From positions 1-64,000 of the IMG/VR virus record IMGVR_UViG_3300020165_003419: DNA of 64,000 bases; one strand, 5' to 3'. Of the stretch, positions 457 through 31,700 are shown piece by piece. The notes under the pieces are model-generated. The model was not told the origin of the DNA and did not search any database. It worked only from the letters and a program-made list of their open reading frames with translations. Every line of letters begins with the position of its first letter. The first letter of the stretch is position 1. Source of the DNA: a virus. The translations under genes were made by a program, and so were the position numbers.

Positions 457-1431
457 TTATTCCTTCGATGCTACAGATTCTCTTGTAAACTGTGGCGGCT
501 TGCTGGATTTCTTCTTGGCGGTCTTAAGGTGACCTCGACGAGAACCAGTCTTGTTAGCCAACGCCAGTGCATCGACGAGAGAGACGATTCGGCGGCCCAA
601 ACGATCGTTTTCAACAGCCAACTTTATATTATCCATATATTTTTCTAGAGATATATCAAGGCCTGCGTCTTCAAGAAACTGGGCTATCGTTGGCTTGTCA
701 AAAACGCTGAGGGCGCCGCCGGCTGCTTTCCATGCAGCTTTTTCTTGAGCGTCAGGTCTTCTTTCGGCGCCGTGCTTCTCTAGATCTGGGTTGGGTATCT
801 TGGTAAATGTGTCTTTAAATTTTCCACGAACCTTTGGTGGGACTAAGTCTCGCATCCGAAAGCCTTCGTCATCTCCAAATTCCTCGGCCAATGTCGCTTC
901 AATTTCTTCTTTGACAATTTCCTCAAGACCAGCATAGCCGCTGCGTTGGTTATAACGATCACCGACTTGTTGGGCAACCGCATTGCGGCGCCTTCTCTCG
1001 GCGTTCGCATTTTTCTTTTTCAGCTTGTCGTATTCCCGGTCGTCACGGCGCCGGCGAATGTTATCTGGATGATCAGGATCGTCCGGGCTTATACCCGTTG
1101 AGCGTCGTTTCGAACCCGTATCGCGTGGACCAACCTCTCTATTGGTTGGTGTAGTGCTCACTATCTTTTTAAGATTAGCTATCAAACTAAGCAAGTCGGG
1201 ATCATTTCCCTCGTCGTGGCTCTCTAATGTTTCGATAGCATCATTGATCGAGTCGATATCCACGCCGCCAGATGATGGCGGTCCGCTAGTCTTCCAACCG
1301 GGCAGACTTGCAGCTATTTGTTTCATGTCTTTTGATTTTTGAGAAAAACCTAACATGTCCATAAAGCCTTCATCAAGTCCGGATAATTCTTCTGCGATAA
1401 TATCTTTAAGTTCTGATCTTTTGATTTTCAT
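457..1431 (-). CDS. putative head-internal (ejected) protein with capsid-targeting-like leader
   Basis: This 324-residue protein has no family I recognise. It begins MKIKRSELKDIIAE-E, an amphipathic 14-residue leader shared with three other proteins in this region and ending in Ile-x-Glu, the type of site cut by T4-like prohead proteases. The middle (about 100-160) is highly charged, with runs of Arg, Asp and Lys, and a second amphipathic acidic helix (LEEIVKEEIEATLAEE) lies near 170-185. The C-terminus is basic and Ser/Lys-rich. Its ATG overlaps the stop of the upstream ParB-motif gene by 4 bases, so the two are translationally coupled. Because the leader group lies away from the virion genes, packaging inside the head is an inference, not shown. 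Confidence 0.6.
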   Translation of the reverse strand: MKIKRSELKDIIAEELSGLDEGFMDMLGFSQKSKDMKQIAASLPGWKTSGPPSSGGVDIDSINDAIETLESHDEGNDPDLLSLIANLKKIVSTTPTNREVGPRDTGSKRRSTGISPDDPDHPDNIRRRRDDREYDKLKKKNANAERRRRNAVAQQVGDRYNQRSGYAGLEEIVKEEIEATLAEEFGDDEGFRMRDLVPPKVRGKFKDTFTKIPNPDLEKHGAERRPDAQEKAAWKAAGGALSVFDKPTIAQFLEDAGLDISLEKYMDNIKLAVENDRLGRRIVSLVDALALANKTGSRRGHLKTAKKKSSKPPQFTRESVASKE

Positions 1432-2345
1432 TTTTCTGTTCCGGGCTTGGCAGCTTTGTAAGCTGCTTTGTAATTAACCCCGCCAGATTGCATTTTTTTA
1501 ACCACACTTCCAAGATTAACTTGTCCGTCATGAGTTTCACCACCGTCGAACTGTGGCATATAACTTCTTTCTGGACCTTGTGGGGGTGGAAGTTGTGATA
1601 GATTGTTGGAGATAACATTAACAATTTGATTCATAGTGTCTTCGGGGGACATACCGGGCTTGACTCCCCACAATTTTTGAGCAGCAGGCACTTCAACAAT
1701 TTTTTGCAAATATTCGTCTCCCAACAAAATACCGCCTTCTGTTTTTTGTCCACGGCGCTCAAGGATCATTGATTTTATTTCGCCAGCACTTTTGCCCAGA
1801 ATATTATCGGTTGCATCAGCGGTCGCTTTGGGAACATTTCCGGCATCTGGTGGCATCGTAGCGACGATTGCTACTTGGGCAGACGCCAACTTATTCAACG
1901 GTCCGTCGCCCGGAAGATCAATATTTAATGCATTAATTTTTGCTTTGCTGCCGGCAGTCGCCCATGTCGATGACCACCGGTGATGACCATCGATAACAAG
2001 ATCTCCAGATGAAACAATGCTTTTTCCTCTACCGGTAATATCTCCTGTTAAGGAGTTCGTTACTGAGTTTAAGGTAGACAGTGGCCAGCCGACAGATTTC
2101 ATCAAACTAATTTGGTTTTGCGTAGGTTTCAAACCTCCCACTGGTGGCTGAGCTTTTGAAACGCTGATAGCCTCATCGTTAGGGCGTCCGTCACCCTCGC
2201 CGGATCCAAGCATAGCTCTGACTTTTGGATCTTTTCCTTCTGGTGAATTTAAAAAGTCCACGACAGGCACCACTTGCGCTTTGGAGAAATCTGGTGGCAG
2301 TTCCTCATTTACAAACTTTTTCCAGCTTTCCATTAACAGTTTCAT
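1428..2345 (-). CDS. ParB/sulfiredoxin-motif protein with capsid-targeting-like leader
   Basis: The 305-residue protein carries LVIDGHHRWSSTWA at residues 116-129, the DGHHRW motif of the ParB/Srx-like fold (nucleotide-binding clamp or nuclease families). The N-terminus, MKLLMESWKKFVNE-E, has the same length and Val-x-Glu-Glu ending as the leaders of three neighbours, which suggests a cleaved propeptide. The region before the motif (75-110) is rich in Ser, Thr and Gly. The C-terminal third is helical and ends in a short Lys/Ala segment. A helpful ribosome site (AAGGAG) precedes the ATG in the 15-base gap after the recombination nuclease gene. It may be a DNA- or nucleotide-acting protein delivered with the genome; the catalytic activity is not established. 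Confidence 0.6.
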   Translation of the reverse strand: MKLLMESWKKFVNEELPPDFSKAQVVPVVDFLNSPEGKDPKVRAMLGSGEGDGRPNDEAISVSKAQPPVGGLKPTQNQISLMKSVGWPLSTLNSVTNSLTGDITGRGKSIVSSGDLVIDGHHRWSSTWATAGSKAKINALNIDLPGDGPLNKLASAQVAIVATMPPDAGNVPKATADATDNILGKSAGEIKSMILERRGQKTEGGILLGDEYLQKIVEVPAAQKLWGVKPGMSPEDTMNQIVNVISNNLSQLPPPQGPERSYMPQFDGGETHDGQVNLGSVVKKMQSGGVNYKAAYKAAKPGTEK

Positions 2346-2360
2346 TTGGTTGCAATCTCC

Positions 2361-5300
2361 TTATTGATTTACTCTTGCGTATCCGTTTTTCTTTTCAATC
2401 ACGATTTGCATATCAACACAGTCTTTGAGTGAATCAAGGTGGGAGATCAACAAAACGTTCTTAAAATACACTTTAATTAGTTCTAAGATCCGAATAAAAC
2501 CCTCCATATTTTCCTCGTCTAATGCTGTGCCGGGTTCGTCAAGGATAAACAAGTCGCCCTTTGGCAAAGAAGAAACAGACAATAGCGACAATCGAATTGC
2601 CATGGCCGCCATTGTTTTTTCTGCGCCGGATGCCATCTCAATTGGGCGTTCATTGTAAAGAGGGTGCTTAATGAAGATGTCAAATTTGTTGCCAGAGCTT
2701 TCAAAGAATATTTCAAAATCTACAATATTAGCAAGAACCTTGGCGATCTCTTCGTTGATCACTGGAATTTTCTTCTTAATCACGTCATATGCAATTCCGT
2801 TCGGGTGCATCGCCTGCATGAACAGGTCGTATGCTGCATATGAATTCTGCAAGTCTATGTGTTCTTTCTTTTGTTCTTCTAATGTTTCAATCTTTTGCTC
2901 GCAGGAGCCAAGCATTTTGACAACCTCTAATGTGTCAGATTCGCAGGCATCAAGATTACCTACCATGATTGTCACCTGATTGCTGAAGTTAGTGCGAGCA
3001 GTCATAAGTTCTTCAAGGTTTTCAATAGCATCTTTGTTTTCATCGTATTCCTTGATCATATTCGTAATATCTTTTAAATCAAGTTCTATCTTAGCTTGAG
3101 AGTTTTTATTTTTTTCTCTAAACAGCTTTAGTTCTGACAATTCTTTTTCGACTACCACCAACTCTGATGTAACCGATTCATATCTTGTTATGCTATTCTT
3201 AACATGTTCTGGTTTTAAACTGCTTAATTGCGTCTTTTTATCCTCAAGGACAACGATGTTCTCTTCGCGATAGGCTGCGGCTTTATGAGCATCTTTTACA
3301 AATGTGTTTTCAGAACAGAATCGACAATCTGGATCATACTCGTGGTTCTCCAGCATCTTTATCTTCTTGTTGGATTCAGCGATGTTTCGATTTAAGGATG
3401 TGATCTTCTTTGTAAGGGTATCAATTTTTGTTTTATCCTCTATGAAGCTCCCTATATCGACCGAGTCTATAATCTCATTGAGAGTATCGAGTTTGACCTG
3501 CTTTAGCCTAACCAAACTGTTTTGCTCAGAAATAGTAGTTGCTAACGAAACCAACATTCGTGACTTACTTTTCTGCTGCTCTCTTACGTTTCTAATGTCA
3601 ATTAGCTCTGCTGGGATTGCAGAAATTTGCTCATCTACGAGCATTAACGCTGTCTTGGTGGCTTCAATCTTTGCCTTAAGCTTGGTGCAGTTCGACTGAT
3701 TGGTTTCTGATTTTTCAATTTGCCGTGATAATAGTTCTCTTGTTTCTTCTATTTCTTCGTCATAACTTCTGTCTTCGTGCTTTTTAATTAAAACTTTAGC
3801 TTCAACAGAATTTTCCTTAGCCATCCTAAATTTCTTTTCAAATATCTCAAGATCCAAAAACTTTGCAATTATCTCTTTTCGGCGGGTAGAACCCTCATCG
3901 ATAAAAGCTAAAGCGCCGTGTTGAGAGGCTAAAGAAGATACCATGAAATCGTCAATCGTACCAAAATGCTTACGAATATTTGCGTCTGTTTGGTTACGAG
4001 TGGTGCCGTTAAGCGATGTAGTTTCCTCTGTGACTGGGTCATACACCTCAAAGTTGAGATCCGTCTTAGCTTCCATGGTCTCTTCACCCTTTAAGCGCTT
4101 GACGTATTTTTCAGATTCTCGCTCAATAGTGTATATCTTATTATTGCATTCAATAGTCAGTGTGCCCTTGCCGATTTCCCTGTTTTGATTAATGACATTA
4201 AGGTTCTTGCGCTCGTTCTTTGACGTTGTATTAAACAAAGTGTAAAGAGCAGCATCAATAATGGAGCTTTTACCGCTAAAGTTCTTTCCGAAAATTCCAA
4301 CAATACCACCAAGAGAACCAAAATTGACAACGTTATCTTCACCATAATTAAAAAGATTATCAAATTCAAACTTTGTCAGCTTCCAATTAACATTGCGCGA
4401 GACTTCCTCTTTCTCCTCAATAATTTTATTGTAAGTACGATTAAGCTCATAAACTTTTTCTAGAGTGTCAGAAGGAACCTGATGGTCCTTAAGGTACTCT
4501 GAGATAAGCTCCTCTTGTATCTTCGGATCTCGCAGGTTTTCGGAGCGTAATCCGTCTGTAATTTCCTCTACATTTCCGCGTTCTCCGCTAGCGCGGTTTA
4601 AGAAGGAGATACTCTCCGGTTTAAATCTGTGCTTAGCAATATCCATTGCTCGTTTCATTACATTGAGCGGCAGATTATTAGTGCTCACCAGCCGAAGGCG
4701 TGCGTTCATTGGAACATCAATCTTCTTTGGCATGCGCCCACGCAAGGTTAGTGGGATTGTGAAGAACGGCTTGGGGTTCTGCAATACAACAGGTTCAATC
4801 TCCCAGTCGTCCTTTGACTTAATATCCCAAATAAGAATTCCCTTATCGTTAGTCTCACCATGATTCTGTTGGACCGTCGAACCTGCGTACCAGATACGGC
4901 CGGCTTCATCTAAGAATTGGCGTCTGTGAATGTCGCCAAGCATTGCAAAATCAAAATCATCAAAGATCGTAATCTCGTCTTCACCAAAACTCATTGTCCA
5001 GTTGGTGTCAGTTTGGCAGCGACTAATCGAACCATGATACAAAGCAATATTGATCTTGTCTGTGTTGCTTGGCTTTACCCAGTTGTCTCTATCAAAGACT
5101 GACAGGACATTTAAACAGAAGTCATCGTTTAGGTGTGTTTCTCCTGAGTCCTTGAGCAAATGCAACCTAGGAAGGTTTAACGCATCTACGATGGGTGTAA
5201 GCGCATCTTGGCGGCTACTATTCTTTAGATTGCCGTCGTGGTTGCCCAAGATAATATATGTTGGTGCAATCTCTGCTAAGCTGCGAAAGAAGTCAGAACA

Positions 5301-5477
5301 CATCTCGACAAACTCAGGTGAGATTTGTGTCTTCGTGTGGGCGATGTCGCCGCAGTGGACAATATAGTCTACTTCTTGCTCTCGCAATGATTGGTATAGT
5401 TGGTCGAATACAATTCGGTATTCGTAATGATACTTTAGGTTTTTAATGTGAGTATCACTAATGTGTGCAAATTTCAA
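2361..5477 (-). CDS. recombination nuclease, fused Mre11-like and Rad50/SbcC-like (gp47-gp46 type)
   Basis: One chain of about 1038 residues joins the two subunits that T4 encodes separately. The N-terminal calcineurin-like phosphoesterase has FAHISDTH, HCGDIAH and LGNHD. The ATPase half begins near residue 380 with Walker A GKNFSGKSS (about 397-405), followed by coiled coil, a zinc hook CRFC (about 712-716), a second coiled coil, the ABC signature region MASGAEKT (about 946) and Walker B LFILDEPGTALDE (about 975-987). Such complexes process DNA ends for recombination-dependent replication and host DNA degradation. I chose the TTG at 5475-5477, because GGAGG lies 5 bases ahead and translation then opens at KFAHISDTH; a TTG at 5493-5495 with GAGG is the alternative. 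A sigma70-type promoter lies just upstream. Confidence 0.9.
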   Translation of the reverse strand: MKFAHISDTHIKNLKYHYEYRIVFDQLYQSLREQEVDYIVHCGDIAHTKTQISPEFVEMCSDFFRSLAEIAPTYIILGNHDGNLKNSSRQDALTPIVDALNLPRLHLLKDSGETHLNDDFCLNVLSVFDRDNWVKPSNTDKINIALYHGSISRCQTDTNWTMSFGEDEITIFDDFDFAMLGDIHRRQFLDEAGRIWYAGSTVQQNHGETNDKGILIWDIKSKDDWEIEPVVLQNPKPFFTIPLTLRGRMPKKIDVPMNARLRLVSTNNLPLNVMKRAMDIAKHRFKPESISFLNRASGERGNVEEITDGLRSENLRDPKIQEELISEYLKDHQVPSDTLEKVYELNRTYNKIIEEKEEVSRNVNWKLTKFEFDNLFNYGEDNVVNFGSLGGIVGIFGKNFSGKSSIIDAALYTLFNTTSKNERKNLNVINQNREIGKGTLTIECNNKIYTIERESEKYVKRLKGEETMEAKTDLNFEVYDPVTEETTSLNGTTRNQTDANIRKHFGTIDDFMVSSLASQHGALAFIDEGSTRRKEIIAKFLDLEIFEKKFRMAKENSVEAKVLIKKHEDRSYDEEIEETRELLSRQIEKSETNQSNCTKLKAKIEATKTALMLVDEQISAIPAELIDIRNVREQQKSKSRMLVSLATTISEQNSLVRLKQVKLDTLNEIIDSVDIGSFIEDKTKIDTLTKKITSLNRNIAESNKKIKMLENHEYDPDCRFCSENTFVKDAHKAAAYREENIVVLEDKKTQLSSLKPEHVKNSITRYESVTSELVVVEKELSELKLFREKNKNSQAKIELDLKDITNMIKEYDENKDAIENLEELMTARTNFSNQVTIMVGNLDACESDTLEVVKMLGSCEQKIETLEEQKKEHIDLQNSYAAYDLFMQAMHPNGIAYDVIKKKIPVINEEIAKVLANIVDFEIFFESSGNKFDIFIKHPLYNERPIEMASGAEKTMAAMAIRLSLLSVSSLPKGDLFILDEPGTALDEENMEGFIRILELIKVYFKNVLLISHLDSLKDCVDMQIVIEKKNGYARVNQ

Positions 5478-5483
5478 GGGTGC

Positions 5484-5488
5484 CTCCA
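5484..5488 (-). promoter_or_regulatory. Shine-Dalgarno GGAGG deciding the nuclease start
   Basis: Read on the minus strand, GGAGG is followed by CACCC and then TTG (5477-5475). A second, similar box (GAGG then CACAT then TTG) sits 18 bases upstream at 5501-5504, so the two start sites are near-duplicates in phase. The downstream one has the stronger ribosome site and gives the usual family N-terminus. Confidence 0.65.
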
Positions 5489-5513
5489 GATACAAATGTG
5501 CCTCTACTATACA

Positions 5514-5542
5514 AGTATATCTTGTTCAGTAGAGGCTGTCAA
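5514..5542 (-). promoter_or_regulatory. sigma70-type promoter for the recombination nuclease
   Basis: On the minus strand TTGACA (5542-5537) and TATACT (5519-5514) are separated by exactly 17 bases. Transcription should begin near 5507, leaving a leader of about 30 bases before the TTG start. The 11-base stretch TTGACAGCCTC at the -35 end recurs at the primase promoter. The match to the consensus makes this an early or middle promoter read by host RNA polymerase. Confidence 0.72.
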
Positions 5543-5556
5543 GTGTTTTTTTGCTA

Positions 5557-5889
5557 TTATGAATTTTTTACTATTGTGAGGATAGTGCGGAAATTGTGGG
5601 AGACACGAGGTGTCATCGAATTTCCAGTGTCTCGGTGGTATTGAACCAGATCAGTCCACATTCTGTTGTGGTCTGAACGAATAGTCTCGTAGTCGCGGGC
5701 TTTGATAAGGTCAATCATTTCTTGTAGAGCAGGCGGAACTTCATCGGCATATGCGGAGAGCATTCTATCTGCCATGTAATCCAGCTGCATACCGATGGCG
5801 TCTGCAGAATTATCGGTAGGAGGGCTTTCCAGAGTGCTCTCAAGCTCTTCCTTGATAATCTGTTTAAGCTGGGATTTTGTGATTTTCAT
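5557..5889 (-). CDS. small putative head-internal protein with capsid-targeting-like leader
   Basis: This 110-residue protein starts MKITKSQLKQIIKE-E. An in-frame ATG 51 bases upstream would add 17 residues that run back through the preceding gene, so the start at 5889, right after that gene's stop, is preferred. After the leader there is a Ser/Pro/Asp-rich stretch (17-30) and then an acidic helical body ending RTILTIVKNS. I recognise no enzymatic motif. The leader matches that of the next gene upstream almost residue for residue (MKITKKQLRKIIME-E), which suggests a common sorting signal on unrelated bodies. Synthesis is probably coupled to the 5891-6124 gene, whose stop is 1 base away. Confidence 0.65.
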   Translation of the reverse strand: MKITKSQLKQIIKEELESTLESPPTDNSADAIGMQLDYMADRMLSAYADEVPPALQEMIDLIKARDYETIRSDHNRMWTDLVQYHRDTGNSMTPRVSHNFRTILTIVKNS

Positions 5890-5890
5890 T

Positions 5891-6124
5891 TTATCTAAGT
5901 GCGTCGAGCATATCTTGAACTTTGCGAAGAGGTTCTGCAAGGTCTTCTCGCTCTTGGCTCACAAGATACTGGATTACATCCTCAAGGCGTGCTGCTCCGC
6001 GAGCTTCGTCAGATGCATCGCCGTCGGGTCCGGTAACAATCGTCTCACCGTCCATTTCCATGTGACCTTCGGAAGTAATCTCTTCCATAATAATTTTTCT
6101 AAGTTGTTTTTTTGTGATTTTCAC
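5891..6124 (-). CDS. very small protein with capsid-targeting-like leader (GTG start)
   Basis: A 77-residue protein translated from GTG at 6122-6124, supported by an AAGGAG ribosome site 6 bases ahead that overlaps the primase stop codon. The leader MKITKKQLRKIIME-E is followed by an acidic, Gly-rich linker (residues 15-40) and a short helical C-terminus (ARLEDVIQYLVSQEREDLAE). If cleaved after Glu14 the mature peptide would be about 63 residues. It has no recognised family. The gene is 10 bases downstream of the primase and belongs to the same transcript. Confidence 0.65.
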   Translation of the reverse strand: MKITKKQLRKIIMEEITSEGHMEMDGETIVTGPDGDASDEARGAARLEDVIQYLVSQEREDLAEPLRKVQDMLDALR

Positions 6125-6130
6125 GGGGTT

Positions 6131-6136
6131 CTCCTT
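6131..6136 (-). promoter_or_regulatory. Shine-Dalgarno AAGGAG fixing a GTG start
   Basis: AAGGAG on the minus strand lies 6 bases before GTG (6124-6122) and overlaps the TAA of the primase. No other plausible start is nearby in frame, so it supports GTG initiation and translational coupling. Confidence 0.6.
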
Positions 6137-7073
6137 ATACAGCCGACAATAAATCTAACAATAAATAGTCGTCATTGTCGATAAATGCAGCATTGTTTTT
6201 TCTTTCATTAAACACAGCCTTCGGCATCGAGCCTACGTCTTCGTATCCAGACACATCAATTTTGTAAAGTTCGATATCATACTTAAGTAATGTTTTAATA
6301 ACCCGACGTTCTTTGTCGGCTGCATCGGGGTCGAGGGCAATGTAGACTGGCGTGTCATTTCTAACGATCTCTCTGATGAGATCCGAATCTGTACGTAACG
6401 TTGAACCCAAAATGGGAACAGCATTTCCTGCGACCAGTGCATCAAAGATTCCCTCTACTATAGTTAGGTCTTTGTTCCAGTCTACATACAAATGATTGAA
6501 CACAATATTCTTGGATGCTTTTGGGTTCTTATATTTATATGAGTCTCCATTATACGATCGGCCAACAAAATAATTCACATCGCCATCATTATCGAAAGAG
6601 GGAAAGATGATCCTATTTCTATATTCTCCGCTAAAGCAGTACCCAATCTTCCATCGTACGATGTCTTCTTTGGTGATGCCGCGGCTTCTTAAATATCGAA
6701 GTGCGTACATGCCTGTAGCCGGGATCTTGTCGTGACAAAGACTTATGAATTCCGGCGGGAGTTCAAGTTTCTGCGCGCTTGTTCCAGACTCTGGTTCCAT
6801 AAAGAGGTCAGCAAATCTCTCAAGATCTGTCCGGTTCGTAATTGCGTCCCATTTCTGTAGTTGGATATACGAACCAAAACGTCTAACAACGCGCCTAATA
6901 TTACGACCCCGATAATCACAAATCCAACACTTATAAGCATTTTTATCCAAGTTAACAGAGAACTTACGCTTGTGGTGACCGCATTCCGGACACGCGAAAA
7001 GTAGCTCGTTGCCTTTGTCTGAGTAGTTTCCAAGCGTTTCATATAAAATCTTCTTTGCTTCTCTTTTGTTCAT
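6135..7073 (-). CDS. DNA primase (zinc finger plus TOPRIM)
   Basis: The 312-residue protein has an N-terminal zinc-binding domain with CPEC (C28, C31) and CWIC (C49, C52), a central region (YLRSRGITKEDIVRWKIGYC, about 128-147) typical of DnaG-type primases, and a TOPRIM core with VEGIFDAL (about 203-210) and ALDPDAADKE (about 244-253). It would make RNA primers at the replication fork. It is shorter than bacterial DnaG because the C-terminal helicase-binding domain is absent, as in phage primases. No helicase lies in the window. A terminator and a TTGACA-type promoter lie between it and the isomerase gene upstream, so it heads a separate transcript with the two small leader proteins. Confidence 0.9.
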   Translation of the reverse strand: MNKREAKKILYETLGNYSDKGNELLFACPECGHHKRKFSVNLDKNAYKCWICDYRGRNIRRVVRRFGSYIQLQKWDAITNRTDLERFADLFMEPESGTSAQKLELPPEFISLCHDKIPATGMYALRYLRSRGITKEDIVRWKIGYCFSGEYRNRIIFPSFDNDGDVNYFVGRSYNGDSYKYKNPKASKNIVFNHLYVDWNKDLTIVEGIFDALVAGNAVPILGSTLRTDSDLIREIVRNDTPVYIALDPDAADKERRVIKTLLKYDIELYKIDVSGYEDVGSMPKAVFNERKNNAAFIDNDDYLLLDLLSAV

Positions 7074-7166: not shown

Positions 7167-7730
7167 TTATCCCTGCAATGCAGCAATAAGTTGCGCTTTG
7201 GTTGTGCGAGTGTTGACGTCAAGACCCTTATCGCGGGCGAACTCAAGAAGCTCAGACTTCTTCATCTTGGGACTCCAAGTGCCACCTGAAACAGAAACAG
7301 AACCGTTGTCTGTAGACACCAACTCAATCTCAAAGCTCAGTGTTTCGCCGGCTAGTGGGTGATTCATGTCGAGCAAGACGTTATCGTCTGATACTTCTAC
7401 AATCTTTGCCAAGAATGGACCCATTGGACCATTACCTTGTACTGTTCCGCCGATTTCAAATTCGAAACCTTCACCAAATGCGGTGCGCGGGACGTTTTGT
7501 ATAGCCTTTTCGTTACGATATCCGTAAGCGTTTTCGGGAGTCAATGTTACTGACTTGGTTTCCCCAACTGACATACCCACCACAGCATCATTAAACCCAC
7601 TGATCATGCGTCCGGAGCCAATCTCAAAATTAAGAGCTTGTCCACGAACACGCGAGTTATCAAATTCTGTCCCATCTGTGAGGGTGCCTTTATAATGGAC
7701 ATTTACATTTTGTCCGGTTGTTACTTTCAT
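7167..7730 (-). CDS. SlyD-type FKBP peptidyl-prolyl isomerase with C-terminal SAP/HeH-like tail
   Basis: Residues 1-140 form an FKBP domain with the SlyD insert: VHYKGTLTDGTEFDNS, FEIGSGRMISGF, the insert from about residue 85 to 125 and MNHPLAGETLSFEIELV. Such proteins catalyse proline isomerisation and act as folding helpers. The last 35 residues (MKKSELLEFARDKGLDV, then KAQLIAALQG) look like a helix-extension-helix SAP/LEM-type unit, which usually binds nucleic acid or protein; SlyD normally ends in a His-rich metal tail instead, and that tail is absent. ATG 7730 has AGGAG 5 bases ahead and a promoter upstream; a strong terminator follows, so the gene can be a single-gene transcript. A role in folding virion proteins is only inferred. 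Confidence 0.85.
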   Translation of the reverse strand: MKVTTGQNVNVHYKGTLTDGTEFDNSRVRGQALNFEIGSGRMISGFNDAVVGMSVGETKSVTLTPENAYGYRNEKAIQNVPRTAFGEGFEFEIGGTVQGNGPMGPFLAKIVEVSDDNVLLDMNHPLAGETLSFEIELVSTDNGSVSVSGGTWSPKMKKSELLEFARDKGLDVNTRTTKAQLIAALQG

Positions 7731-21689: not shown

Positions 21690-22744
21690 ATTTCTGGCTC
21701 CGTTACAGGACCGTAAAGGTCTACGTAGATATTTGAGTCTTCATTCGTCTCAGTACAGTCGAAATCTAAATCAACATAATAGCTTTCTCTATTAAAAATT
21801 TCCGCATTTTTGCATGCGATTTCAGGATCAATTTGATGATCTTTGAGCATATCAAAATAATACCCAACACTGGACGTTGTGTAGTTTAAATCAATATTTC
21901 TTATATCATCATCAATTGGATCAAATGCGTTCAATGACTCTTCCGTCATCATTGAGCCCATAATTCTTTGATGATCTTCTTTAAAGTATTTTCTCTTAAA
22001 CGCATCTCTTTTTTCAAGATGAGAACCGCCCAATGAGGCTCCATCATCTTCAATTTCAAAAATTTCAATATCAAAGTTTTCAGTAAGCATGTCTGTGTTT
22101 AGTTCTTCAACATAAACTAACAAATCATCACTAATAAGTTCAATTATTTTATTGTCTCTGAATGTTCTGGTTCGAGAAATTGCTTTCCTAAGACTCTGCT
22201 CTCTCAGCTCAACGCCATAATTTGCGGCTGCTATTGTTTTTTCATAATTCAATTCGATATTTACTTGTGGTATTTTAATATCATTTTTGTGGTCCGACGG
22301 TTCTGTGCTGGTTATTTTTCCGTTCAGTGTTACTACCTTCCATCCGGGAGCAATTTGCTGCTCTCCATCTAGGTGAGCATCTCCGATCATAGACGTATAA
22401 CGATAAGAATCTTTTTTAGGAGTTATCTGTATTGGGCTAACATCAACTTCAAAGTAATTTATATCAGAACCCTCTTGTGTAATTGGTGGATTTGTATTAG
22501 TCAAGACATCTTCGATATTCTCAAATAGCACCAAGCCTTCCATATATTGAGTATCTTTTTTAATTCTTTGCCCTATTTCACTTTGAGCCTCAGTTATTCC
22601 TGCATAATTTCCATCATAGATAATATTATCATCAAAAAAAGCATAGTAACTTGGCTGGAATGTTCCTAAAGACATCAAGTGTCGACCGTACGGTGTCAAT
22701 TGTATATCAAAAACTTGTTCTTTTTTGTTTATAAATTTAGCCAT
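21680..22744 (-). CDS. virion structural protein with 'LTPYGRHLMS' N-terminal module
   Basis: The 354-residue protein opens MAKFINKKEQVFDIQLTPYGRHLMSLG followed by YYAFFDDNIIYD. The first block repeats the layout of the LTDVGRR proteins (D..LT..GR..S.G, then an aromatic-acidic segment), so it is a third, more distant member of that family. The middle has a long acidic and helical region (about 190-260). Its stop overlaps the start of the 1265-residue gene by 10 bases and its ATG overlaps the stop of the giant LamG gene by 1 base. It may dock to the same ring as the other two copies. Confidence 0.65.
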   Translation of the reverse strand: MAKFINKKEQVFDIQLTPYGRHLMSLGTFQPSYYAFFDDNIIYDGNYAGITEAQSEIGQRIKKDTQYMEGLVLFENIEDVLTNTNPPITQEGSDINYFEVDVSPIQITPKKDSYRYTSMIGDAHLDGEQQIAPGWKVVTLNGKITSTEPSDHKNDIKIPQVNIELNYEKTIAAANYGVELREQSLRKAISRTRTFRDNKIIELISDDLLVYVEELNTDMLTENFDIEIFEIEDDGASLGGSHLEKRDAFKRKYFKEDHQRIMGSMMTEESLNAFDPIDDDIRNIDLNYTTSSVGYYFDMLKDHQIDPEIACKNAEIFNRESYYVDLDFDCTETNEDSNIYVDLYGPVTEPEICP

Positions 22745-25700
22745 CAGTAATTTCCTATATTATTACCACTGGGCGCCCCGGCGGTGGCCGCTGGTGCCGC
22801 GGCTTGTGTTGGTGCCGAAGACATCTGTGTTCGAGTGGCGGATACATTTGTATTTAGGACTTGCCCACTTGGAATTGTTGCAAGACTTTGCGTCGGAGAT
22901 GCCGTATATGTAGCAGCACTAGCAGCAGTTATATTGCCTTCAGAACTAATTGAACCGCCGTAATTTACCGAGGTATTTTTACCCGAGTTTTCGGGTCTGT
23001 TATTAAAGAGTACCTCTGTGTCCATATTAATTGACTCGATTATGGAACAGAAATCATACGGCCAATTAAACTGCATTGGGCTATCATCATCCCTGCTGAT
23101 TGTCTCCGAAGAGCCGGCTTGACGATTAACATAGTCATAGTAATCTGCCTGGGAACGTTGTTTTACTTTGAAAACCATCCATCTCATGTTCGTATTATTT
23201 AAAATGTCGCCGGCTTCTAAGGGATAGCCAGCAGATAACCTGTGTTCTGCGACTGCAGTTTTAAAGAATCCTTTCTCGTGGTTTCTCGGCATTAAATTTT
23301 GCCACATATACGATAAGTCATCTTTATCAAAGGTATAGCTAAATTCAAAGAAATACATCACAACCGGGGCGGCATTATCAGGATAGTTAATAAAGTCGAA
23401 CTGCGGAGGCAAAATATATTTGTTCATTGTTTGCGTTTGTTTGTTGATAACTGCTGCAGCGTCTGGTGAGGTTGACTCGCCGGCGGCAGGTAGCCTAAAC
23501 AAGTATTTTCCATTAAAGTTGCTGAATGTTTGCGAATCTTTTAAATTTTCGCTCGTAGATTCAACCACATAGGGAATCGCGACGATAGCTTCGTTTATAG
23601 TATGAGAGTCTTTCAGTTCTCCAATTCTAGAGTTTGTTTTGGTTTTCTTAAACCCGCACAGATCGCGAAGAGAGCCGACTTGCCCTTCTTTCGCTAATGC
23701 ACCGGCGTAATCAGGAATACCATCGTTATAAATACTACCAGACAACCTTACTTGGTAATGGTTTCTAAGCCAGTTTTTAGGCATGTCATCGATTTCAACA
23801 AACACCCCTGTTTTCTTATCACGCGGAATTTCGCCGAATTGATGCCACATTCCGTTAGGAGCAGAAGCGCTTCCAAATGTTGGCAACGTCTTAGTAGATG
23901 TTCGATAATTTAATAAAACATTACCTTTCGTTCGATCAATAGAAGAACTAACCGGCATCTGCTGATACTTGTCGCTAAAGTTGAGCATTGGGGTTTCAAA
24001 TTTTGTACTAATGATCCATCGCTTACCAACAACTTCATTGGTTTGTTCGGCTGCAACATCACTTTTTAGACCATTTGCGTTGTTTGCCGAATTTGCCGAA
24101 GTGCCGGTAGTTTCTTTAAACACCCTTTCAACACCAAATAAGTTGAGGCTCGCACTAAGTTGCATTGAATTGCCATTAATGCTGGATCCAGCGTACGGGG
24201 CTGTACTCACTACTTCTCCCTGACCTTTATATTTTGGATCATGGATAAGACTTGTGTATTCTTGATTTGCTATATATCCATATTTAGGACGGTAACTTGT
24301 GTTGCTCCCGATTGAACCAGAGGCGCCGACTTGAGATGAAATATGATTAGCAGAATAGGTAATACCATAGCCTTTTAATTTCGGTCCAGGATCCACTCTC
24401 CAATAGTTAACCGTTGTCTCAGCCAAGATTCTTTCAAGATCGTAAGCGACGTCGCCTTTAGGTCGGAATATTAAATCTGCCCACGATTCACCGTGATAGT
24501 ATGGCGGAGTGAAGGACCAGTTATATCCTTTAACAGAGTCCATAATCTGATATGTGTCTCCAGAACCAGATCTGTGTGCACTGCTAGTGTATGCTGAGAT
24601 TGGGGTAAGACCCTGTGACGTAGTCGGAAAATAGCTGTGACTAGATGTTACGTTTCCAGCATGACCAGCGACCGGCGGACCAAACGCGGTAGGTCGACTA
24701 TACATTGTAAATGTTTCATTAAAGTTCGGCGCAAACATTGGATCCTGCGGCAACTCGAAATAAGAGCCTTGGTCATACATAATTGCAGCAGTGTCAGTGG
24801 GACCGGTAGATAGTCTAGGTAACAGCGCTGTTCCACCGCCTTGAGTGTATGACTCAGGCATGAAGGAACCACTTTCGAAACTATAATCTCTTGAGCCGGT
24901 CACCGAACGACGCATTTTTACTCTAGCCATGAAAACAGAACCGGTTTCAAATCGGTAGTCGTCTTTGTACACAGTTTCTGATTTTAACGAGGTAAACTCC
25001 GAGTTCTTTAAGTAAAAATCAGCCACCCCTCCAAAGAAGTTTTTAGCCATCAAGGTATAAGTTGGATCCGAACTTGCTTCATAGGATGCCACTGCGTTTA
25101 TAGTAGCCGAAGGGTGAGCTTCACAGTCAGCAAACTGTGTATTGGCCATCATATTGGGTTCGATAATTGCTTCAAATGGGACTCTTTGATCCCAAAACGA
25201 TCCATACCCACGATCAAGTCTGTTTGCCGGCACTACGCCTTTTTCTAAACTTCCAGATGAACTGGCAGTCATAAATTCTTCAGTTCTTGTATTGATCATA
25301 TAATCTGACATAATCGGCACGTGCGGACCACAGTTTGTGGTTGTGGCTGCATAGTCGCCTGTTGATGCAGTGTATGATGTATTTATATAATGGCTCCCAA
25401 CCAGCATTTTATATCTGTTGTATAAAATAGGATAGTCTACAGCTATTCCGGACTTAATTGTGTTATATAAGATACCGGGAGCAAAGTATGTTTGCATTAC
25501 TGGTCTAAATCCGCCGGGTACTACATTAAATACATTTTTTCCAGCATAAGCGTTGGAGCCGGCAGCTGCAGCAATTTTAACTTTAGTTCTTGCGTGGTTT
25601 TCGTAAGAGTTTTTAAATTCGGACACCAAATCCATTGTTCTTTGAGAGGGGAAGAATCCCTTGTATGGATGGAATTTTATAGATGCGGAGCACACTAATC

Positions 25701-28700
25701 TTATTTCTGCCGGATTAAGTCCAGAATTGCTTCCTACTTCTGCAAAATATTTCAGGAAATCTGAGTTCGAGTAATCGATGTAGAAGCCTTGCTGCGAACT
25801 ATTAATTGAAGATCCTGGGATATCAAAATAATCTTGTTTGCCTTCAGAAAATGGACTGCCGTAACTCAAGTAGTCCGGTAAGTTCCTACTGATCCTGTAC
25901 TCTGGTACTATTGATCTGCCTCTAGATTGCAACCTAATTGATTCAACAAACTTAGCATATGAGTCGTACGCCGGCGCTGTGGGGGTAAACTTGCCGCGGT
26001 ACCGAGTCCGTCCCTGATCCTTATAGTTGGGTAGAACATCTGAAATTATCACCGCATTCTTATTGGCTTCCCACAGAGCCTCTCCTGCAAATATCTCGGA
26101 GGCGGAGGAGATAAGCCATGGCGTGGCTGCTGGACCTGCAGCCCGACTAAATCCCAATCTAGCAGTTTGCGAGTTTGGCGCAACGCCATTACGTCCGGCT
26201 AATGTATTGGTTATTGAGTTTGGATTAATGACCGATAACGGTGAACTAAGTAGATGCTTTCTTGCGTACAAAGGTGATGCTACAGCATTATAAGCTCGAT
26301 ATACATCTCTTGCAAAAAAAGTACCCTGACCGGTGGGGGCGCCAGGATATTTATTAGATTCGATAAAGAATGATTGCCAGTCATTTTGAAGTTCGCCGGC
26401 GGAACCGGTCCCGAGCCAATCGTAATTACGTTGAGGCGCTTCACCCCATCGAGCTATGATTTGTGCAGTATTTTTATTTTCAGCCGAGGGTCCTCTTCTG
26501 GTTAAGAAGTGTGTTGGTGCGTCCAAAGCCCAGGCACTCGCAGAAACTTTATATCCAAGTGCACTTGTCCGGACGTAAGCACCAGTGACTTGAGTGAAGT
26601 AAGTGCCAGTATAAAGGTCAGCACCCAATATGTTTCTTTGTTCTCGGTTGCTGTGCCAGTAATCATTTGAATAGTTGAGTCGCTGTGTAGAATGGCTAAC
26701 AAACTCATTTCTTGATGCGGGGTAAGAAGCTTCAGAATATTTAATATAGTTAATATTCGTGATTGAAGGTGCTTGATACGATGCTATAACAACAGCTTGC
26801 AACGGCGTTACTCTTTCGTTAGCAGTGACACTTATTAATCTATTGTCTAACTCTGTTGTAGCAAAATATTGAGGCTGGTGAGTAGTTTTTAACTTGTGTC
26901 GTTGACCGGTAACATCTTGAATACCTATTTCTTGTATTTTCTGTCGGAAAGATACTGGTTGCATGTTATAGGTTCTTGGCGCCTGATCAATCATGATCTG
27001 CAGTTTGTTTTCTTTTCTCTGCTCTCTGATAATCGGATGTTGTGCTTGTCGCGTTTGTTTCCAGGAGGGGAAACCGTACTGGTTGCCACGCTTAAACATA
27101 AGATTGTTGAAAGCATTAGGAGAACGTGAAAGTGGGACAACTTTTACGAGTGCATCAGCATTGTTGATATAATCAATGATATGAGTTGTCCCTTGTCCCA
27201 AAGTGTTAGTAGAGGAGGTAAGCGGCTCATAAATATTTAAGTTTAAATCGCTAACTTGTTGCAAGTAGCCGGCGCCGTTGGAAGCTCGATACCCAAATCT
27301 GCGCGCTGCCATGGTTGGGTCATAACTGCCGATCTCACTGGCACTGACAAAGTTGTATGCATCGATATACCCAGCTGAGCTTGAAATCTTAAAGTCTGTG
27401 GGGACAAAACCAACATGTCCGTTAGTGGAGACTAAGGATGCGGTAATCCAGGCATATTGTCTTGAAGAACGTGGAATTTGATGTTTAACAAAGAAGTTAT
27501 CATACAATGAACTAGATTTGAACGTGCGCTGGGTTTCGTATCTAGATATTGGAGGAGTACAGCCAGCCAATGGTGCTGGAATTTCATTCCTGTATGCATT
27601 TGACATAGTTAATGTGTTGAAATTTGTATTAACAGCCGACATCGGAAACAAGTTCCTAGAGTTTTCTGGCTTCCAGTCCCAAACTACATTCGATCCACTA
27701 ACAAATACGCCAGTGTTTGAAGTGTTGAGTTTATCATCCCTCTCTGCACCACCCATTTTATACCAAGCGTACAGTGTAGCGCTTGAACTAACGTATGGAG
27801 CCGAGGAAGTAACATCACAGGGAGTTCCGCCATTATATAAAGCAGCAACGTCTGTAGCCCTTAAAGAGCCAACCCACAGAGTAACTTGATCCATCGAGCC
27901 AGTAAATATACTGCTACCGCCTCCGGTACCGGTGCCGTCTGATTGCCCACCTATAACCAGTGCTGTTTGTCCGTCTCTTTTTACCTTTGAGCGAACTTGA
28001 TATGTACCGACAACCCTTTTTGCGTCGAATCGGTTATTTGGAGATGTGCCTGTTATAACATTCAATGCGGCGCCGTCGATGTACATAGCGACATCCGTGC
28101 CAATGTATCCGGCGCCATTGGTGCTTGATGTTGGACAAACGACTGCAAGATGATGCCAGTTTCCATCGTCGAGAACACTAGACGTTATATAATACTGTGC
28201 GAGTGCCGCGGTGCCGCCATGAGGATCCGTTGCTCTTGTTCGTGCAAAAAGTTCCAATCGATGAGCATTAGAAACATAATTTTTCTTTATTTCAAAAAAC
28301 GGATCGCCGCCGGCGCCTGATTTTCCGAGATTGTATAGGTGCCCTTGATTAAAGGCGGGACTAAATCTAATCCACGCTGCGTAGCTGAACCCGCTGGCTC
28401 TTGAAGACGTTAAAAAAGTGCTTGCCGAGGCTGAGTCTGCATTAATTAATTGCATGCCGCGGCTGGCGTCTGTGCCCCAGTAAAGAGATTTGTCATTAAT
28501 CAGGCGTGGTCCGGTTCGAACCCCGACTACAGTTTCGGTAAGCACCTTATCTCTTTGTAAATTATTGCGGTGTACTTTGTGCATTCCGGGTAATTCTGCG
28601 TATGATGCCCCGGGATTTAATGCAAGATTCGAGTCGCGACCGAACCGAGCTGTATGGCGTGCGAGGTGTGAACGGAGTCCAAAGTCTAGATTGTGTATAT

Positions 28701-31700
28701 CGTTGACTCTGATTCCGTATGTTTCAGAGATAGTTCCGCTCGGACCTTGAGATGGCTTGAGAACTGAAAGATTCTTATAGTTCAAAGCGTTATAAACCGA
28801 GAACTCATCTGCTCTAAAGTCGGTGTATCCGGGTGTCATTACCTCAATGCCACCAGGGGCCGAGAATTTTGTTTTAATGACAGATTTGTTAGCTGTGCCG
28901 GTTAAGTATCCAACGTTGTATTCATTAACAAAGTTGAAATGTTCTCGGTCAACTGTATCATAATCTCTTGTTGGTTTTGTGTCTAAGAACGTACGTACTG
29001 ATGTTGAGCTTGTTGCAGCGCCTTGAAATACGTTAGTCGGAAGCACTGGTAGATTTTCAATAAACTGCCTTGGGTTGGAGTGGGCTCCAAACGTGCTAAC
29101 AATTTCGTATGTGTTTGTATAGTTACCGAGTTTTGTCGAACCCGTAATCCTAATATTCTTAAAGTTAAAAGGTCTTTTTGCAACCATATCGCGATAGTGT
29201 GTTGCTCTCGGATAATCAGCGTGAGGGTATGGCTGGTTTGCGCCTGGAGGCGCGACATAATCTGGTGACATCGGATAGTCTGCACCGACCATACCGATGG
29301 CTCCGGAAACACTGGCTGCACAGGCACCCAGCAAAATTCTCCACGCTTCAGGGCGATTGTTATTATTATCTGTACCTGTATTTAAGGGAGTATGCCTGTG
29401 TTGATTTCCTCCGACATTGTGTTCCGTAAAAATTCCTTGTAATGGCTTTTCTTGATCCTCGCCATATACATCGTTGTGTAAGTTCGTGATTTCTATATTA
29501 AGCCCAAGACCAGCTTGGACATCAGACTGATATCCACTGTTTAAAGAGGAGCTAATTATATTAAACGGAAACGCTTTACTCGATTTAACATGGTAATAAC
29601 CGTCTTTGTCGTCATGGTGTCGACCGTAATCAACAGGAACTACTCTTTTAATTTTCTTAGCAGGAGTCTTGCTGGGATCTTTAAAATCAGTGATCGCTAG
29701 GAAATCGTCGTTAAAAGACAGCAGTATGTTTTGAGGAACAAAGACTCCGCCTTTTTGATTAACTGGTCCGCCGGGATATAACGCTGCTTTTGAGAATTCA
29801 ATATTTTTATCTATAGAAAAGTTTGTACCACCTTTATAAGTTCTTGCGTTAGGTATATCAGATGAAAAAATATTCGTTTGTTGGAAATTCTTGTTTGCAA
29901 ATTTCTTTGGTGTGTATTTGGTAGAAGCGTTGCTGACAATTATGTTATCTCTGCTGGAAGACAATACTGGTCTTGAGTTGATAACCTCTCTGAATTTCTC
30001 TCTCTGGTTATCGATATTTGCATCGCCCGAACTAATTTCGACTGAACTACGTTCAGCGCGCATTTTCCAATAATCAACTTGTTTAGTGGTCTTACGTGGA
30101 GAAGTTGGTAGCGTTGTAAACCCAGTTTCATATGGATAATTCTTTTCGCCAACACCATACATGGCTGCTTCTGGATCGGGCTGCTTCGCTTCCAAAGTAG
30201 GGAATGGTGTTCTGTATTTGTTTCTTTCTAAGACATGACTCTCAACCAAGTTAGTGATGCCATCTACAAAATTAGCGGAAGCGGGCACTAATTGAGAAAA
30301 TATTTCAGTTATTGCAGTATCAAACCACTTGTAATAATTGATGAATTTTTCAATATCCTTTGTGTCTTTTACGCGACGGAAAAAAGCTTCACGCAATTTT
30401 TCTAAATCTTTGTAACGACCGCGATATCTATTAACAGGGGCGCCTATTGTGTTGTTAAAGTCTACGATTCCAGAGAAAAAGATCAACATTTCTTCAGAGA
30501 TTGCGCGGTACATACTTTTCTCTGCTGTAATGACATAATTTGGAATTGTCTGTTCGAAGCCTAAAAGCTCGTCATCATCATTCAAAATACTGATCATTTC
30601 AGAAGAAACAACTTCTTCGGGATCTACAAACTTAAAAGAATTAACTCTTTCTCTGTCTATCACATTAGTCGATGAAGCATCAAAGAAATTTCCATAGCCA
30701 CTGTATTGATACCCTGTTAGTTTACCAAGCCAACCATAATTTTCTCTAATAACTGAGGAGCCTGAACTAAAGTCTTGAGTTACAAAATTGCCTGCTGCGT
30801 TTGAGCTTGTGAGAGCATCGAAATTCCATTCTAATACCAAGGTATCTTTGTTTAAGTTGTCAACCATGTTGGTTGAAGTATCGAGGGCAGAAATATTTTT
30901 ATAAGAACCAGAAACACCAGAGTTGTTTACATCGTATAAATGAAGCTCTAAATCTGAATTTTCAAGATGTTTGGCCCAATATTTAACATTTGAAATTTTA
31001 ACATCTGAATTGGAAACTAAAGTACCTGTAAGGTTGTTTCTATAAGCACCTGCATAAAGTCTTTTATGGTTTGTTAAGAAGTTAGAACCAGTTGTTGCAG
31101 ATATCGAACTACTAACTTGGAATGAATCTTTAATCGTGCCCAATACAGAGTGGACACCTCGGAATATCAAATCATAGCCCAGACTTGAACCACTAACAAA
31201 GCCGGTCAATCCCACAGACTTGGGCTTTAAGCGGACAGAAAGGTTCCATCTATTGTTATCATAGACACCCTTGAAAAGACTACTCGTTAAAGTCGGAAAA
31301 GGGTTGGCTGAGCCTGACGACTCTAGTTTGAAACGTACGTTTTTTGAATTTGAAGCGTCTCGAACAGCATAGACTTGAAAGTTTGCTAAACGACTTATCG
31401 AACCAGTGCGTGGTGTGGAAGTGTTCGTTCCTTTTTGGTGAGCCGGGTTAACCGGGTGTGCTAACTGTACAGCGCCGAATAACGATACTTGGGTGAAGGA
31501 ACGGTCGACTCGATCTTTCGTATTAAAAAACTTAGGAAAGATAACATCGGCTTCTGCTGTAAACCCGTAGTTTTTTTCGTAGGCACCGCCGGTGTAGCCT
31601 TGAATCGATGAACCTGATATGAATCCTCTCGAATCTTGATTAGTTGAGGCACTTCTCTGGTAAACAACTGCACTGGTTTGGGACGCTTTATTGAAGTTTG

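Follow-up and report, generated by a model that had tools for sequence, protein, structure and literature searches.

Do the short leaders at the N-termini of otherwise unrelated proteins near one end of a virus record address these proteins to the phage head, as the capsid-targeting sequences (CTS) of T4 do? The stretch of DNA analyzed here (the window) comprises bases 1-64000 of the 98,299-base virus record IMGVR_UViG_3300020165_003419, in which the minus strand carries most genes. The original prediction had singled out four leaders of 14 residues, each with an aliphatic residue at position 12, Glu14 and a second Glu directly behind it, and had likened them to T4 head-targeting peptides. All four were found in the sequence with these features, on the minus strand (Table 1), and at the level of sequence the likeness holds with respect to the conserved site, the matching CTS positions, the gp21 protease and capsid site of relatives, and the swapping of leaders.

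The observation is thus real, but the leader families are two, not one. Type A, MKITKxQLKxIIKEEL, begins three of the four window leader genes (MKIKRSELKDIIAE, MKITKSQLKQIIKE and MKITKKQLRKIIME), and type B, MKLLxENWRKFLxE, begins the fourth (MKLLMESWKKFVNE) as well as four genes in the rest of the record. Compared pairwise over 13 residues, the three A leaders agree at 8, 9 and 6. When the N-termini of this genome were shuffled by column 2,000 times, pairs with at least seven identities averaged 0.09 per set and nine identities were never reached, so that the likeness of the A leaders is not due to chance. On the A-PSSM scale, where the leader at 1390-1431 scores 25.1, the next best gene N-terminus in the same genome scores -12.8. 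The leader of the gene at 1428-2345, by contrast, has only 3 of 13 residues in common with the other window leaders and belongs to family B, all other members of which in this record lie outside the window. A single origin for all four is therefore rejected, and the proposal of one shared leader stands for the three A genes only. A search of the remaining genome for the same leader, which the original prediction had suggested, yielded the four further B-leader genes at 85729-88724, and an adjoining 806-aa gene has a B-like C-terminus (NEQLVGNWRRFIS). For the ORF at 5557-5889, which has an in-frame TTG further upstream, the leader results from the ATG at 5889.

Table 1. Leader genes and their context; positions refer to the window unless marked genome, and ↓ denotes the proposed cut
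Feature	Position	Strand	Basis or remark
324-aa protein with type A leader MKIKRSELKDIIAE↓EL	457..1431	-	leader 1390-1431
Type A leader, 14 codons	1390..1431	-	A-PSSM 25.1
305-aa ParB-like protein (IDGHHRWS) with type B leader MKLLMESWKKFVNE↓E	1428..2345	-	phrog_2859 E 9e-8
Type B leader, 14 codons	2304..2345	-	sequence of the 1428-2345 gene
Fused SbcC/SbcD-like nuclease gene without leader, amid the leader genes (context)	2361..5495	-	Metallophos E 4e-13, AAA_23 E 7e-10
110-aa protein with type A leader MKITKSQLKQIIKE↓EL	5557..5889	-	ORF sequence
Type A leader, 14 codons	5848..5889	-	ORF sequence
77-aa protein, GTG start, with type A leader MKITKKQLRKIIME↓E	5891..6124	-	AAGGAG upstream of start
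Type A leader, 14 codons	6083..6124	-	ORF sequence
DnaG-type primase gene upstream of the leader genes (context)	6135..7073	-	DNAG_N E 6e-9
B-leader gene MKLLLENWRKYLTE, HAD/polynucleotide-kinase-like phosphatase	listed first of four, genome 85729-86295, 86744-87370, 87370-88395, 88395-88724		
B-leader gene MKLLLENWREYLNE	listed second within genome 85729-88724		
B-leader protein kinase MKLLLENWRKFVNE	listed third within genome 85729-88724		
B-leader gene MKLLIENWHRYLGE	listed fourth within genome 85729-88724		

The body of the 324-aa protein had no Pfam or PHROG match and no homologue among the fetched loci. In the alignment, relatives of the ParB-like protein elsewhere in phages start with B or A-like leaders, and the one in Mel-JY01 begins with MGILKQLLKEIEDEKL. 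The order of primase and leader genes recurs in a related contig, G004. Adjoining the leader genes on the other side, at 1-453 on the minus strand and cut at base 1, is the start of a tubulin/FtsZ-family gene; it has a full-length relative at L036:7786-8922, its G004 relative matches PF00091 (E 6e-10), and G028 appears to carry a similar gene directly upstream of gp21, an arrangement that is, to our knowledge, unusual in a T4-type head module. Elsewhere, the window encodes an FKBP-type peptidyl-prolyl isomerase (7167-7730; E 7e-23) and a 3,906-aa protein with Laminin_G_3 domains (22744-34464; E 1e-28) that is probably a tail fibre, and a long gene run at genome 48757-70850 resembles, by eye, sugar-nucleotide and glycosyl-transfer genes. 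Genome 91131-92978 (L003:9132-10979) encodes a 615-aa protein with internal A-like helices and a VWPSAYASGALVKCRKVGAANWGN domain; this domain is widespread in cyanophages, and the S-SCSM1 relative of the protein is annotated as a virion protein. Close to the B leader cluster, at genome 92996-93721 (L003:10997-11722), lies a gene for a trypsin-like serine protease with a hydrophobic N-terminus (PF13365, E 2e-12).

To keep the search pattern from shaping the conservation profile, scans were run with patterns that stop at residue 10 for A and at residue 11 for B, and sites were counted only in loci from these scans, among the matches listed. In this sample, unselected for the site, aliphatic12-x-Glu14 (I, L, V, M or F counted at 12) is present in 107 of 108 A and 88 of 104 B leaders, the full site being missing in 16 of the latter. 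The residue before x-E is Ile or Leu in most leaders, unlike the small residue of the phiKZ-type S/A-x-E. Conservation in B collapses straight behind Glu14: E14 carries 3.3 bits of information, and residues 15, 16 and 17 carry 1.1, 0.65 and 0.38. In A, where Glu14 reaches 99%, it continues beyond the proposed cut (E15 96%, residue 16 hydrophobic), and a second site, aliphatic20-x-E22, is enriched: E22 occurs in 32 of 52 leaders with an aliphatic or aromatic residue 20 and in 10 of 56 otherwise, so that the cut may fall at Glu14 or Glu22.

B aligns with the CTS of T4 IPII and IPIII, MKTYQEFIAE, in which residues 4 and 7 serve targeting and residues 8 and 10 processing (PMC9026906). The corresponding residues are W8, Y/F11, L/I12 and E14 in B, and L8, I11, I12 and E14 in A, which is thus hydrophobic, not aromatic, at the positions of T4 Tyr4 and Phe7. 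By this alignment, B appears to match the T4 CTS position for position and A more loosely; W8 and Y/F11 were both fixed in the search pattern, so the independent tests are positions 12 and 14 only. Some kinase homologues have a degraded site (MKLLFESWRRFYSD), and in those at L427:7667-8773, L451:864-1970 and L359:5684-6790 the Glu14 site is lost (FYSD, FCIS). In T4, Asp at this Glu position blocks processing and leaves targeting unaffected (PMC9026906).

The window is a small sample of a much larger set of leader proteins. At least 119 and at least 120 IMG/VR stretches match the two exact degenerate patterns, and in 35 related long contigs taken from the matches listed, A occurs in 32 and B in 19; reversed control patterns had no match in the same 35. 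The A pattern was absent from 10 neutral long contigs and four isolates (immuto, Mel-JY01, S-SCSM1 and T4), and the B pattern from the same 10 contigs and nine phage records (these four isolates, HTVC008M, P-SSM2, KVP40, Methylophilales phage and one marine single-cell virus). A profile scan found B leaders in contigs fetched for A and the reverse, as well as a few leaders that are internal or C-terminal in proteins, and at a stricter threshold it found no leader in 0.72 Mb of neutral virus loci. Searching phage records by tblastn with the 20-aa leader consensus gave no useful match, the query being too short, and a literature search found no papers quoting these leader peptides.

The bodies of the four window proteins fall into separate clusters at blastp 1e-4, in agreement with the original prediction that they are unrelated, and the 751 leader ORFs of at least 70 aa in the loci from the matches listed form 443 body clusters. 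A short N-terminal leader common to unrelated bodies, as expected of a T4-type CTS, is therefore what we observe. Among 130 representative leader proteins, 24 Pfam families were matched, including protein kinase, zeta-toxin/AAA kinases, HD, GNAT, NUDIX, YkuD, amidase, TseH-like, ParB and tRNA-ligase CPD, to which PHROGs add polynucleotide kinase, DNA methyltransferase and 5'-3' deoxyribonucleotidase; these names are annotations predicted by similarity, and most of the representatives had no match in Pfam or PHROGs. For a leader kinase, the fold obtained with an alignment has a confident body (mean pLDDT 84, against 34 from the single sequence) behind a low-confidence, disordered N-terminal part (residues 1-20). 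The leader kinase has invariant catalytic residues, and a PDB fold search returned kinases (E about 4e-5) with low TM-scores, so this search backs membership in the kinase family only.

For a few sets of homologous bodies, the leader is A in one phage and B in another, and the homology sets in shortly after the leader: L136:1071 (A) and L224:7074 (B) are identical at 41 of 69 residues, the HD-domain proteins L136:1322 (A) and L221 (B) have 146 identities, and the exchange pair L165 and L190 has 72. Judged by these pairs, the leaders are detachable and swappable, and their natural exchange fits the finding that the T4 IPIII leader suffices to enclose a foreign protein (PMC9026906).

Two protein types whose relatives have leaders occur in virions of S-SCSM1, itself a phage without A or B leaders. 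Relatives of the VWPSAYASGALVKC protein have A or B leaders, and the S-SCSM1 protein is annotated as a virion protein; NMN adenylyltransferase was detected in S-SCSM1 virions by mass spectrometry, and NMNAT-like proteins are present in cyanophage virions (PMC9602691). At genome 81070-82467 (L002:18071-19468), the present record encodes a cytidylyltransferase-like protein (PF01467, E 8e-6), relatives of which occur in many leader contigs.

The original prediction also called for a test for a gp21-like protease and its cleavage motif. The record ends before the head genes, so that its own protease would lie beyond window base 1; both protease and motif are present in relatives. G004, whose baseplate protein is 62% identical, has terminase, portal and a T4 gp21 protease (PF03420, E 6e-36); its leader genes lie ahead of terminase and also within the head module, between portal and gp21, and the gene that follows gp21 has the B motif LLVENWRKFLHTE close to its start. 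From this gene order, the window leader genes would lie upstream of a head module situated beyond base 1. PF03420 is present in 26 of 35 leader contigs, among them all 18 of at least 150 kb, but also in 5 of 10 neutral long contigs (3 of the 4 of at least 150 kb). This control led us to reject co-occurrence as strong proof: gp21 is frequent in large phages, and its presence agrees with the proposal without proving it. The capsid protein of the clade bears the same aliphatic-x-Glu↓Ala motif (LLRE↓A), as do those of immuto and Mel-JY01 (IVSE↓A and LISE↓A; T4 counterpart FLTE↓A), and by its position this motif would be the place of the cut.

A conserved gene shortly after gp21 begins, in jumbo relatives, with an A leader (for example MAKITKRMLKGIVKECLVEIL; A-PSSM 15-20, shuffled maximum 3.2), whereas in smaller phages the N-terminus of the gene behind gp21 is weakly A-like; this conserved core protein was not found in phage records. 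Together with the B motif after gp21 in G004, such a start would suit another reading, in which the leader proteins build the prohead core, as gp67, gp68 and gp22 do in T4: they would bind each other by way of the leader helix, help to shape the head and then be degraded, without acting after injection. In T4, gp21 also cleaves the core proteins (PMC9026906). We regard this reading as improbable, since the bodies are optional, vary between phages and are very diverse, including enzymes with intact motifs (kinase, HD, GNAT, NUDIX), unlike scaffold proteins.

Slightly less probable still is that the helix is a targeting or docking signal for a destination other than the head, such as the host membrane, a replication compartment or a shared host partner, with Glu merely a part of the helix. 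Compartment-forming phages encode a tubulin/FtsZ-family protein, one of which is encoded here beside the leader genes; the helix is amphipathic, and the few internal or C-terminal copies of the leader would also fit. The conserved positions are, however, those of the T4 CTS plus the protease site, with conservation in B ending exactly behind Glu14, and leader genes lie inside the head module, one of whose own genes has an A leader. We consider it likely that the A and B leaders are capsid-targeting sequences of the T4 kind.

In the DNA of the B leader, ATGAAACTCCTACTTGAAAATTGGCG, even synonymous sites are frozen among phages that have reached saturation in their other genes. The leucines of MKLLLENWR leaders are spelled CTC-CTA-CTT in 55 of 64 cases, against 0.33% expected from codon use, a spelling that extends over 27 of the 32 body clusters. 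Between homologous bodies, 45% of fourfold sites are identical, against 98% of the 27 nt of their leaders; gp21 genes of six relatives, five of which have B leaders with this spelling, agree at 25-34% of fourfold sites, that is, at saturation. All 154 complete occurrences of the 20-mer CTCCTACTTGAAAATTGGCG among the matches listed are in frame, two codons into an ORF, behind ATG, GTG or TTG (ATC in one); conservation is lacking upstream and falls after nt 26. In the present record, ATGAAACTCCTACTTGAAAATTGGCG, which is common to distant phages, lies at genome 86254-86295, 87329-87370 and 88354-88395 (L003), one copy reading CTC-TTA-CTT. A scan of bacterial and archaeal genomes, aimed at identifying a host, found no 26-nt B leader.

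Such freezing would fit a nucleic-acid element, a translation control or recombination site with an incidental peptide. As the main reason for which the leader is kept, this is very improbable: in A and in the less frozen LLF and LLM forms of B, the peptide is retained while its codons differ, Glu14 is nearly invariant in A, and the 20-mer always stands in frame at an ORF start. A nucleic-acid role could nevertheless exist beside that of the peptide, and the frozen leader may reflect recombination copying between phages at the leader or a role at the RNA level. Tentatively, and at somewhat less than even confidence, we propose that uncultured marine T4-related phages, forming a widespread group, tag a large enzyme payload with two interchangeable head-targeting leaders, one of them DNA-identical even in deeply diverged phages because it serves as a recombination anchor (or RNA element) for acquiring cargo. 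The frozen leader offers a route to testing how phages recruit new cargo.

For the head-targeting reading, we infer the following course. During head assembly, the N-terminal amphipathic helix of A or B would bind the prohead core and so enclose the attached protein in the head; the phage gp21-type protease would cut after aliphatic-x-Glu, at Glu14 and possibly, in many A leaders, at Glu22 too, so that the mature body would be released within the head and would then enter the host along with the DNA. If true, the leader would be a handle for listing, from metagenomes alone, the proteins that uncultured marine phages bring into hosts with their DNA: kinases, acetyltransferases, phosphohydrolases and cell-wall enzymes, with most members lacking an assigned function. 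That many otherwise unrelated proteins, here and in numerous relatives, start with one of two tags resembling that of T4 suggests that these viruses carry a large, swappable enzyme set into infected cells.

Supported from several sides, the system appears to be a much enlarged variant of T4 capsid targeting. As in T4 IPI-III and Alt, a short N-terminal leader stands on unrelated bodies; as in the T4 CTS, an aromatic or hydrophobic, a hydrophobic and an aliphatic residue and Glu appear to occupy equal relative positions; and, as in T4, a gp21-family protease and an aliphatic-x-Glu↓Ala capsid site are present, here in relatives. Unlike in T4, the leaders have 14 residues instead of 10, come in two families, one of which (A) is without aromatic residues, and in relatives number up to 15 A copies per genome, against three CTS-pattern matches in T4. 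T4 ipII and ipIII likewise share leader DNA, but including part of the upstream region, whereas here it is common to distant phages without that region. Repoila et al. 1994 reportedly described a polymorphism of T-even internal proteins; module exchange at T4 leaders would parallel the exchange seen here. In T4, the proteins carried in this way comprise anti-restriction factors as well as a modifier of RNA polymerase (PMC12373910, PMC9026906); some of the enzyme families in the present cargo have not been reported among internal proteins of T4. T4-like cyanophages, KVP40 and other isolates have CTS-like leaders at 1-2 per genome, without A or B in those tested; MKx[FY]xxFxxE matches twice in S-SCSM1, twice in P-SSM2 and once each in KVP40 and the marine single-cell virus (control 0). 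In phiKZ and SPN3US, propeptides occur on head and ejection proteins, and a protease distantly related to gp21 cleaves the head-enclosed cargo behind Glu (PMC9026906, PMC7411985), but the phiKZ motif is S/A-x-E (PMC9026906), against mostly Ile or Leu before x-E in A and B, and the SPN3US gp47 propeptide has 111 residues (PMC7411985), against the 14 of the leaders described here.
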